Of a stretch of 64,000 nt of DNA, positions 8,490 through 47,772 are shown piece by piece. This DNA is from an uncultured Gemmatimonadota bacterium (GTDB taxonomy: Bacteria; Gemmatimonadota; Gemmatimonadetes; Longimicrobiales; Longimicrobiaceae), in assembly GCA_902805735.1 (NCBI GenBank), contig CADCTW010000089.1, positions 62,001-126,000 on the forward strand, read 5' to 3'. A model generated the notes under the pieces. That model did no database searches, had not been told where the DNA came from, and worked only from the letters and a program-made list of their open reading frames with translations. A program made the translations under genes and the position numbers. Positions within the stretch are counted from its first letter, which is position 1. Every line of letters begins with the position of its first letter.

Positions 8490-8553
8490 CTCACACAGAG
8501 ACACAGAGGCACAGAGACGAATTCATCTCTGTGCCTCTGTGTCTCTGTGTGAG
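8490..8553. repeat. R1 dispersed palindrome, full copy (perfect 28-bp arms)
   Basis: CTCACACAGAGACACAGAGGCACAGAGA-CGAATTCA-TCTCTGTGCCTCTGTGTCTCTGTGTGAG. Confidence 0.95.
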
Positions 8554-16593: not shown

Positions 16594-16657
16594 CTCACAC
16601 AGAGCCACAGAGGCACAGAGATGACTTCATCTCTGTGCCTCTGTGTCTCTGTGTGAG
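16594..16657. repeat. R1 dispersed palindrome, full copy
   Basis: ctcacacagagccacagaggcacagagatgacttcatctctgtgcctctgtgtctctgtgtgag between convergent genes. Confidence 0.93.
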
Positions 16658-18179: not shown

Positions 18180-18244
18180 CTCACACAGAGACACAGAGGC
18201 ACAGAGATGAAGTTCTTCTCTGTGCCTCTGTGTCTCTGTGTGAG
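18180..18244. repeat. R1 dispersed palindrome, full copy
   Basis: ctcacacagagacacagaggcacagagatgaagttcttctctgtgcctctgtgtctctgtgtgag between convergent genes. Confidence 0.93.
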
Positions 18245-28109: not shown

Positions 28110-28307
28110 GTGACGATGCCGGGCCATTTCACGCTGGTCCTCCTGCAGTGCGAGAGCTGGTGGGTCGGCTGGGTCAGCGAGCTCCCCTCCGTCAACGCCC
28201 ACGCCGACACCCGCGACGGCCTCCTCGACACCCTCCGCACCGCCCTGGGAGACGCGCTGGAACCGCTAACGGCGGGCTCACACAGAGACACAGAGGCACA
28301 GAGATGA
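28110..28307 (+). CDS. HicB-like antitoxin-type small protein whose C-terminus is encoded by an R1 repeat
   Basis: MPGHFTLVLLQCESWWVGWVSELPSVNAHADTRDGLLDTLRTALGDALEPLTAGSHRDTEAQR*; SHRDTEAQR* is R1 sequence. Alternative ATG at 28116. Confidence 0.55.
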   Translation: MTMPGHFTLVLLQCESWWVGWVSELPSVNAHADTRDGLLDTLRTALGDALEPLTAGSHRDTEAQR

Positions 28308-28333
28308 CTTCATCTTTGTGCCTACGTGTGAGA
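28278..28333. repeat. R1 dispersed repeat, degenerate full copy
   Basis: ctcacacagagacacagaggcacagagatgacttcatctttgtgcctacgtgtgag (right arm shortened). Confidence 0.85.
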
Positions 28334-28367
28334 CCAACTGCGGACTGCGTAGCGCGGAGTCACGCGA

Positions 28368-28772
28368 GTGACTGACTTCGAGCTGCTGATCCTGCGGCGT
28401 CCCCTGTCGTTGCAGACCGGAAGCCGGAAGAACCTGCAGGCGTGGAAGCGTTTCGTAGCCGGGGAGGCGGAAAAAGCCTGGGGCGATCAGTCCCCGGTTG
28501 CATCGGCGGATCTGCATCTCACACTCGTATACCTCTCAGGCATTCATGCCGCAGACGCAGACAACATTATCAAGCCGATCCAGGACGCACTCGTTGGCCC
28601 CGTCCTCGCGGATGACCGCCTGGTGGTTGACGTCGAGAGCCATCGGCGTCTCATCACGGGAATGTTCGAGCCCACCCGGTTGCCGGCGCTCCTGCGCCAG
28701 GGCTTGCTCGCGGGGAAGGAATGTGTCTATGTACGGCTGCGTGACGCCCAGCCTCTGGAGGAACTGCTATGA
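28368..28772 (+). CDS. RusA-like crossover junction endodeoxyribonuclease family protein
   Basis: LHLTLVYLSGIHAADADNIIKPIQDALVGPVLADDRLVVDVESHRR: D-x-DN-x-x-K-x5-D and DDRxV pattern of RusA. GTG start. Confidence 0.72.
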   Translation: MTDFELLILRRPLSLQTGSRKNLQAWKRFVAGEAEKAWGDQSPVASADLHLTLVYLSGIHAADADNIIKPIQDALVGPVLADDRLVVDVESHRRLITGMFEPTRLPALLRQGLLAGKECVYVRLRDAQPLEELL

Positions 28773-29443
28773 GGAGCCAGCCCCAGAATGCTCGTCAGAA
28801 GCGAATCTCTGAGCTTGCCGCCGAATACGCGCAGCGGGGATTCCACGTCCTTGTCGACCCCGGGCCGGATTCGGTGCCATTCGACCTGGGCGGGTATCGT
28901 CCATCCCTGCTCGCCGAGCAGGGGAACGAGTACCACATCGTCGAGGTGAAGACGCCGGGAACGCACTTCTCCGTGGATCGCCTCCAGGAGCTTGCCGAGG
29001 AGGTGACGCGGCACCCGAACTGGCGCTTCTTCCTGGTAACCGCCGACGATTTGCTTCCGGGCGAGTTCCCCGCGAGCGCCATGCTCCTTTCCGCGGAACA
29101 GTTGGAAGAACGGTTCGAGAAGGCGGGACGGCTGCTGGAGCTCGGTAATAGCGAGGCGGCGCTACTGGCGCTCTGGGCAGTCCTGGAAGGAATGCTTCGC
29201 CTCCAGGCGGAGCGCGCCTCCCTCCCCGTCGAGCGACTCCCAAGCCCTGTCCTGATCGACTACCTGTACTCGCACGGGGAGATCTCGATGGAGCAGTTCG
29301 ACGAGGCCAGGTTCCTCCTCGACCTCCGCAACCGCGTCGCCCACGGCTTCGTCACACCGGACGTGGAAACCGCGGCCACCCGGCTCCAGTCCCTGATCGT
29401 CGGCCTCCTCGACGAGTGGGTGCCGCGAAGCGCGGCAGCATGA
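28769..29443 (+). CDS. PD-(D/E)XK nuclease-like (AHJR-like) domain fused to HEPN-like C-terminal domain
   Basis: ISELAAEYAQRGFHVLVDPGPDSVPFDLGGYRPSLLAEQGNEYHIVEVKTPG (D...E-x-K); C-terminal AALLALWAVLEGMLRLQAE...DEARFLLDLRNRVAHGFV (RN-x3-H). ATGA overlap with the upstream gene. Confidence 0.65.
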   Translation: MRSQPQNARQKRISELAAEYAQRGFHVLVDPGPDSVPFDLGGYRPSLLAEQGNEYHIVEVKTPGTHFSVDRLQELAEEVTRHPNWRFFLVTADDLLPGEFPASAMLLSAEQLEERFEKAGRLLELGNSEAALLALWAVLEGMLRLQAERASLPVERLPSPVLIDYLYSHGEISMEQFDEARFLLDLRNRVAHGFVTPDVETAATRLQSLIVGLLDEWVPRSAAA

Positions 29444-29646
29444 CGAGGGACCTGCTCGAGCGGATCACGTTGGACCCGGCCGTGCGGAGCGGCAAGCCCG
29501 TCATCCGCGGGACAAGGATCACGGTCTCCGACATCCTCGAATACCTCGCGGGCGGGATGTCGCCGGAGGAGATCCTCTTGGACTTCCCTTACCTCGCCGC
29601 GGAGGATGTCCGGGCGGTGCTCGCGTTCGCGGCGACTCTTCGATGA
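29440..29646 (+). CDS. DUF433-family (VapB-like antitoxin) protein
   Basis: MTRDLLERITLDPAVRSGKPVIRGTRITVSDILEYLAGGMSPEEILLDFPYLAAEDVRAVLAFAATLR; ATGA overlap with the upstream gene. Confidence 0.88.
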   Translation: MTRDLLERITLDPAVRSGKPVIRGTRITVSDILEYLAGGMSPEEILLDFPYLAAEDVRAVLAFAATLR

Positions 29647-29658
29647 CGAACAGCAGGG

Positions 29659-29722
29659 CTCACACAGAGACACAGAGGCACAGAGATAAGTTCATCTCTG
29701 TGCCTCTGTGTCTCTGTGTGAG
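29659..29722. repeat. R1 dispersed palindrome, full copy
   Basis: ctcacacagagacacagaggcacagagataagttcatctctgtgcctctgtgtctctgtgtgag. Confidence 0.93.
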
Positions 29723-29730
29723 CCCGCTTT

Positions 29731-38863: not shown

Positions 38864-38916
38864 ACAGAGAGGCACGGAGATGAAGTTTTCTCTGTGTCTC
38901 TGTGTCTCTGTGTGAG
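38864..38916. repeat. R1 dispersed repeat, partial copy
   Basis: acagagaggcacggagatgaagttttctctgtgtctctgtgtctctgtgtgag. Confidence 0.75.
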
Positions 38917-47529: not shown

Positions 47530-47772
47530 GCCCTCACCCGGCAGCTTACAGCTGCCACCCTCTCCCAGTAACCGCCCTCGGAGAGGGGACTACTTCGAGT
47601 GCGTTTACGGCCGGGACTGCTCTGTGTCTCTGTGCCTCTGTGTGAGCCCCGCTGTTTCCGCGGGAGCCTTCGAGGTGGAGCGGTACCCTGCCCCACCGCG
47701 CCCGAAGTGGTCCCCTCTCCCACGCTGTTTGTGGGAGAGGGTGGCAGCTGTAAGCTGCCGGGTGAGGGCCCC
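47530..47772. repeat. R2 composite repeat with an R1 half copy nested inside
   Basis: gccctcacccggcagcttacagctgccaccctctcccagtaaccgccctcggagaggggactacttc ... gtcccctctcccacgctgtttgtgggagagggtggcagctgtaagctgccgggtgagggcccc; R1 half at 47621-47646. Confidence 0.8.

Follow-up and report, generated by a model that had tools for sequence, protein, structure and literature searches.

Do the three overlapping open reading frames at positions 28,368 to 29,646 of the window (the whole stretch of 64,000 nucleotides that was analysed) form one system, or do only some of them belong together? A preliminary description of this DNA had read them, as a RusA-like nuclease, a fusion of a PD-(D/E)XK and a HEPN domain (ORF2) and a DUF433 protein, to be a single candidate defence or toxin-antitoxin cassette. 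Our analysis indicates that the RusA gene and the ORF2 gene make up an apparently undescribed two-gene unit, which occurs in bacteria of at least five phyla.

Composition of the cassette

The features of the locus are listed in Table 1. The three frames and both ATGA overlaps lie exactly at the positions given in the preliminary description, and its domain calls (RusA, AHJR-like, HEPN and DUF433) were all borne out by Pfam, by motifs and by structure models.

Table 1. Coordinates of the cassette and of the palindromic element in the window
Feature	Position	Strand	Remarks
RusA-family nuclease (ORF1)	28368..28772	+	134 aa, GTG start
ORF2, whole	28769-29443	+	224 aa
ORF2 N-terminal domain, archaeal Hjc-like PD-(D/E)XK fold	28769..29122	+	PF18743, Foldseek, profile, alignment
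ORF2 C-terminal domain, HEPN (HepT-like), all-helical	29123..29443	+	Foldseek; RNRVAHG at residues 187-193
ATGA overlap, RusA stop and ORF2 start	28769-28772	+	conserved across phyla
ATGA overlap, ORF2 and DUF433	29440-29443	+	window only; no recurrence elsewhere
DUF433 ORF	29440..29646	+	68 aa, ATG at 29440; PF04255, E=5.8e-26
Palindromic element, copies flanking the cassette	28274-28335, 29656-29728		second copy just past the shortened DUF433 gene
Palindromic element, about ten other places	e.g. 8494-8549, 16598-16653, 18184-18240, 38865-38912, 47620-47642		

The first protein was assigned to PF05866 by Pfam (E=1.8e-6, above the cut-off). Its AlphaFold2 model (mean pLDDT 86, pTM 0.81) had E. 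coli RusA (1q8r) as the top PDB match in Foldseek, with E=1.1e-5 and TM 0.66/0.79; a sequence profile of this RusA subfamily did not reach E. coli RusA in a search of the PDB. The catalytic set of the window protein, D63, D65, K69 and D83, is intact. In the alignment of 40 pairs, D65, K69 and D83 were kept in all 40 and D63 in 39. In the E. coli enzyme, the catalytic residues are D70, D72, K76 and D91.

Residues 3-114 of ORF2 match the AHJR-like REase family PF18743 in Pfam (E=1.3e-20). The AlphaFold2 model of ORF2 has a mean pLDDT of 86 and a pTM of only 0.55, so the placement of its two domains relative to each other is uncertain. In Foldseek, the N-terminal half matched archaeal Hjc (2wiw and 2wcz, probability 1.00) and the C-terminal half matched the HEPN structures 2hsb, 1o3u, 7ae8 and 5yep (probability 0.99-1.00), with E-values of about 1e-2 to 1e-1, which are modest since a match spans only one domain. 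The ORF2 sequence profile also matched Hjc 2eo0 at E=7e-4. That is, structure prediction, which the preliminary description had proposed as a check, finds both an REase fold and a HEPN fold in the model. Among 22 ORF2 homologues, Pfam detected PF18743 in every one, Hjc (PF01870) in five and HepT-like (PF01934) in five. The HEPN part of the window protein itself falls under the Pfam threshold, yet the R187-N-x3-H192 motif is present.

The two active sites of ORF2 differ in conservation. Across the 40 pairs, R187 of the HEPN motif was kept in 38 and H192 in 39, and R-x4-H was kept in 37-38/40, more often than the K and E residues of the DNase. The Hjc-like site is looser, with D46 in 37/40, E59 in 35 (Asp in two others) and K61 in 32 (Arg in six others). 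In the window protein, the PD aspartate is replaced by Ser46, while E59 and K61 are present; in the ORF2 of genome G273, Ala46 takes its place. Because of these substitutions, the DNase activity of ORF2 has probably been lost in both strains, in which the RusA and HEPN sites remain intact. The preliminary description had ascribed two nuclease activities to ORF2; both folds are indeed there, but for the window strain the claim is doubtful in view of Ser46.

None of the PADLOC-DB 2023 models matched the cassette proteins at E<=1, in agreement with the label of candidate undescribed system in the preliminary description, and NCBIfam offered no relevant model that matched them.

We also observed in the window an intergenic dispersed palindromic element, CACAGAGACACAGAGGCACAGAG, an inverted repeat of about 70 nt. 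Its half-sites gave 35 matches in the window against 0.19 expected.

Linkage and distribution of the two genes

Our set comprises 59 distinct loci that encode a homologue of ORF2, from Gemmatimonadota, Pseudomonadota, Bacteroidota, Cyanobacteriota and Chloroflexota. In 56 of them (49 full, 7 partial), the gene immediately upstream of ORF2 on its strand is RusA, which is the co-occurrence with RusA-like genes on which the preliminary description had staked its proposal. The two frames overlap in 49 of the 59 loci, with 4 nt shared in 39 of these and 1 nt in the other 10; because this overlap recurs across phyla, it is far beyond chance. Among 292 cyanobacterial genomes, ORF2 was found in 31, the RusA subfamily in 28 and both in 27. 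In the 28th RusA-bearing cyanobacterium, G347, a diverged AHJR-like ORF overlaps RusA by 4 nt. A further orphan RusA with a diverged catalytic motif is present in G477.

In a mirror-tree analysis of 40 loci, the pairwise distances of RusA and ORF2 correlated with r=0.93, a value that 0/2000 permutations reached and part of which reflects the common ancestry of the loci. The tree is nevertheless patchy by phylum, which shows that the two genes travel together. It is almost beyond doubt that the RusA and ORF2 genes form one functional unit. The coupled unit of the preliminary description thus holds for RusA with the AHJR-HEPN fusion, but not for DUF433 as a member.

When named genomes were scanned, 16 ORF2 relatives came up; they belong to Hymenobacter, Methylococcaceae, Rugamonas, cyanobacteria, a Litorilinea MAG (Chloroflexota) and a Gemmatimonadetes MAG. 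Besides the cyanobacteria counted above, whole-genome searches found ORF2 in 6/399 Pseudomonadota genomes, in 4/297 Bacteroidota genomes, of which two match in the HEPN part only, and in further Gemmatimonadota. Five more loci lie on plasmids of Agrobacterium, Rhizobium and Azospirillum. The distribution is therefore patchy, about 10% of cyanobacteria and 1-2% of the other sampled phyla. In viruses, a pattern-based scan of IMG/VR and a search of a phage collection gave no ORF2 relative, and we reject a viral origin of the pair on this ground; the same viral data contained only three distant RusA matches, all without ORF2.

The DUF433 gene

The preliminary description had counted DUF433 as a member of the unit and had suggested that recurrence of the triplet be looked for among gene neighbourhoods. 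DUF433 adjoins the pair nowhere else. It was absent downstream of ORF2 at every other locus examined, including the syntenic slot of two congeners in which the pair is present, and what recurs is RusA and ORF2 alone. In all, seven DUF433 genes occur in the genome of the window. At the congener locus L153, a DUF433 gene shares 4 nt with the ORF behind it, the start of which resembles a DUF5615 toxin by sequence, not by profile. In the window, no DUF5615 toxin follows the DUF433 gene, which ends early, and the palindromic repeat begins within 30 bases. From these sequence features we judge the window DUF433 to be an accidental bystander, the orphaned and shortened antitoxin remnant of a DUF433-DUF5615 type pair. 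Its absence at other loci and the missing toxin partner rule it out as a third component. The ATGA overlap with ORF2 speaks for the original view of a three-gene toxin-antitoxin or immunity cassette with a DUF433 antitoxin, but against this general absence and the orphan state of the window copy that view is hardly credible.

Other genes of the toxin-antitoxin type were seen beside ORF2. In G273, one of the two syntenic congeners, an orphan PF09720 "addiction module component" gene (L003, 1156-1431, minus strand) lies directly 3' of ORF2, in the place that DUF433 occupies in the window; it is antitoxin-like and unrelated to DUF433. As a weaker and tentative pattern, a few lineages, most notably one cyanobacterial clade, have RelE-like, PIN, DUF433 and PF09720 genes next to ORF2 or joined to it in one frame.

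Variant architectures

At seven loci, RusA is broken or absent and ORF2 is open. The HEPN motif is intact in six of them (L025, L039, L044, L048, L053 and L058), and the seventh, L036, has RD in place of RN; some of these loci come from draft assemblies or MAGs, in which a sequencing error is possible in individual cases. Because six loci keep the HEPN motif without an intact RusA, it is hard to uphold RusA as an obligatory antitoxin, and we think that it is probably not one. The sequences further suggest that ORF2 is harmless without RusA or without a trigger.

The reverse arrangement was found in the cyanobacteria G319 (L062), G481 (L063) and G477 (L088), in which RusA is followed by an Hjc-like protein without HEPN. 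In G180 (L005, 1495-2598, minus strand), a Cro/C1-type HTH is fused to AHJR-HEPN, and no RusA lies upstream. This HTH-AHJR-HEPN protein represents another architecture found in the same genus. We considered it as a genus-wide variant and rejected this, as the look-alikes with long open frames in G599 and G602 do have RusA.

In a cyanobacterial clade (L038, L041-L044, L097, L100 and L101), ORF2 is longer at its C-terminus by about 180 residues, the last of which form a RelE/Gp49-like stretch with a weak Pfam match (E=0.016). The ORF after the extended ORF2 of G460 may be Shedu-like, and the extended ORF2 of G474 shares an overlap with a PIN gene.

Genomic context and evolution

In three congeners, the pair occupies one slot between a phosphodiesterase gene and a myo-inositol-1-phosphate synthase gene. 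Comparing the genes of this slot by the Nei-Gojobori method, we obtained dS values of 1.1-2.3 and dN values of 0.2-0.4 for RusA and ORF2, against dS values of 0.06-0.55 for the neighbours; the values of the pair are near saturation and mean no more than "much higher". The GC3 of the pair was 0.69-0.82 in all three congeners, compared with 0.89-0.97 for the neighbours. The high dS together with the low GC3 fits an in-place replacement of the pair by diverged alleles. The excess over the neighbours resembles that of fast-exchanged conflict genes. In one cyanobacterial clade dS was not raised, and the dN/dS of both genes was about 0.7-0.8, while that of nearly all neighbour genes was 0.02-0.18; elsewhere the dN/dS of the pair was 0.1-0.4.

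The cyanobacterial neighbours of the pair are largely housekeeping genes. Around 12 cyanobacterial loci, PADLOC families showed no excess among 106 neighbours compared with 107 control genes 60 kb away, and a defence-island location is unsupported there. The "defence" of the preliminary description is possible, but the cyanobacterial copies lie outside defence islands. On plasmids, the pair of Rhizobium sp. T136 has AbiEii/DUF6088 and restriction genes next to it, and that of pTi CFBP2177 lies near ligD and imuA/polymerase repair genes; the adjacency to defence genes is known from single plasmid examples only. On two rhizobial-type plasmids, an HATPase (HATPase_c_3) gene is convergent to the pair (L030, 6640-8574; L032, 7226-9205).

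Proposed function

Our model starts from what was observed, namely the unit and its conservation, the folds, the intact RusA and HEPN sites, the co-divergence of the two genes and their fast or replaced alleles. We propose that the pair may be a DNA-structure-gated HEPN effector in which RusA and the Hjc-like domain serve as the DNA engagers, and we give this reading a probability of a little under 40%. RusA and the Hjc-like domain would bind branched DNA, that is, replication or recombination intermediates, for example from a replicon that invades the cell or is damaged. Such engagement would license the C-terminal HEPN domain to act as an RNase, and the cleavage of RNA would lead to arrest or death of the cell, as an abortive response gated by DNA structure. 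RusA would then be an activator and not an inhibitor, and the sensing of DNA structure would serve against invaders.

We favour a gated effector because HEPN is kept without RusA and because RusA is kept with a HEPN-less Hjc-like protein. The near-invariant catalytic residues of RusA and the retention of the HEPN R and H in 38 and 39 of the 40 pairs support it, as do the conflict-like evolution in the congener slot, the patchy spread over five phyla and the location of some copies beside AbiE-type, restriction or RelE-like/PIN genes. The lack of PADLOC enrichment near the cyanobacterial copies and of any PADLOC model match counts against it, and so do the missing PD aspartate of the window Hjc-like domain and the HTH-fused ORF2 of G180 without RusA. 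Slightly more tentatively, the pair might be the first known example of a class of two-gene switches for immunity or dormancy, with nucleases of the Holliday-junction type (RusA and the Hjc-like domain) that recognise branched DNA and thereby control a HEPN ribonuclease.

Instead of this, the pair could be an accessory of DNA repair or recombination that processes stalled forks or junctions, in which case HEPN would serve dimerisation or nucleic-acid binding and any RNase activity would be secondary. RusA is a plausible repair enzyme too, both it and the N-terminal domain of ORF2 have Holliday-junction resolvase folds, and the stable cyanobacterial positions beside housekeeping genes, the missing defence-gene enrichment and the repair genes near the pTi CFBP2177 copy all agree with such a role. 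Nevertheless, we consider it rather unlikely, since HEPN R-x4-H is better conserved than the DNase K/E residues, the distribution is patchy and hyperdivergent alleles occur at one locus. It is more unlikely that the pair is a toxin-antitoxin system in which the upstream coupled RusA neutralises a HEPN RNase toxin. The loci with a broken or absent RusA argue against it, and an antitoxin that merely binds would have no need of the catalytic residues that RusA conserves; on the other hand, the gene order and coupling are those of HepT/MntA with its upstream antitoxin (PMC7641770), the HEPN active site is intact and the distribution is sporadic.

We give little credence to a restriction-like attack on DNA, in which RusA and the Hjc-like domain would cut invading DNA with HEPN as a back-up. 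The two DNase folds and the restriction genes that adjoin the pair in Rhizobium sp. T136 would suit such a role, but the pair has no methyltransferase or recognition domain, and the PD aspartate is lost in the copies of the window and G273.

In this coupled unit, enzymes of DNA junctions are joined with a ribotoxin fold, and the combination spans at least five phyla. Should the HEPN RNase indeed be licensed by branched DNA, few abortive responses would have a comparable trigger, and both the AHJR-HEPN fusions described in 2013 and the RusA proteins that lie outside prophages would gain a concrete role. Even as a repair system, it would be a conserved pair, undescribed as far as can be searched, with clear residues to mutate.

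Comparison with known systems

The window RusA shares its fold and the catalytic D/D/K/D set with E. coli RusA (1q8r, 2h8c), but it belongs to a distinct subfamily tied to ORF2 and is not on a prophage. Similarly, the N-terminal domain of ORF2 has the fold of archaeal Hjc (2wiw, 2wcz, 2eo0), but is fused to HEPN and, in the window copy, lacks the PD aspartate.

HepT/MntA resembles the pair in having a HEPN RNase with R-x4-H and an upstream coupled partner. In that system, the tyrosine of the HepT RX4HXY motif is AMPylated by MntA (PMC7641770). This tyrosine is present in 9/40 ORF2 relatives and is Phe in the window; no MNT-type gene was found at the loci examined, the upstream partner being RusA. 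The pair is not a HepT/MntA system, because the tyrosine is mostly absent and there is no MNT gene, and the lack of conservation of the tyrosine rules out control by MNT-type AMPylation. In addition to lacking a nucleotidyltransferase partner, the pair differs in the extra Hjc-like domain of ORF2.

Among 5.39 million open-access papers, we found no report of a RusA-HEPN partnership. On AHJR-like proteins or PF18743, the same literature gave nothing relevant beyond Anantharaman et al. 2013 (PMC3710099), Table 1 of which states that HEPN-M (DUF86/HepT) is occasionally fused to an archaeal Holliday-junction-resolvase-like REase. This is the same domain fusion as in ORF2. RusA is not mentioned in the main text of that paper, whereas the ORF2 described here has an almost obligatory coupled RusA partner.
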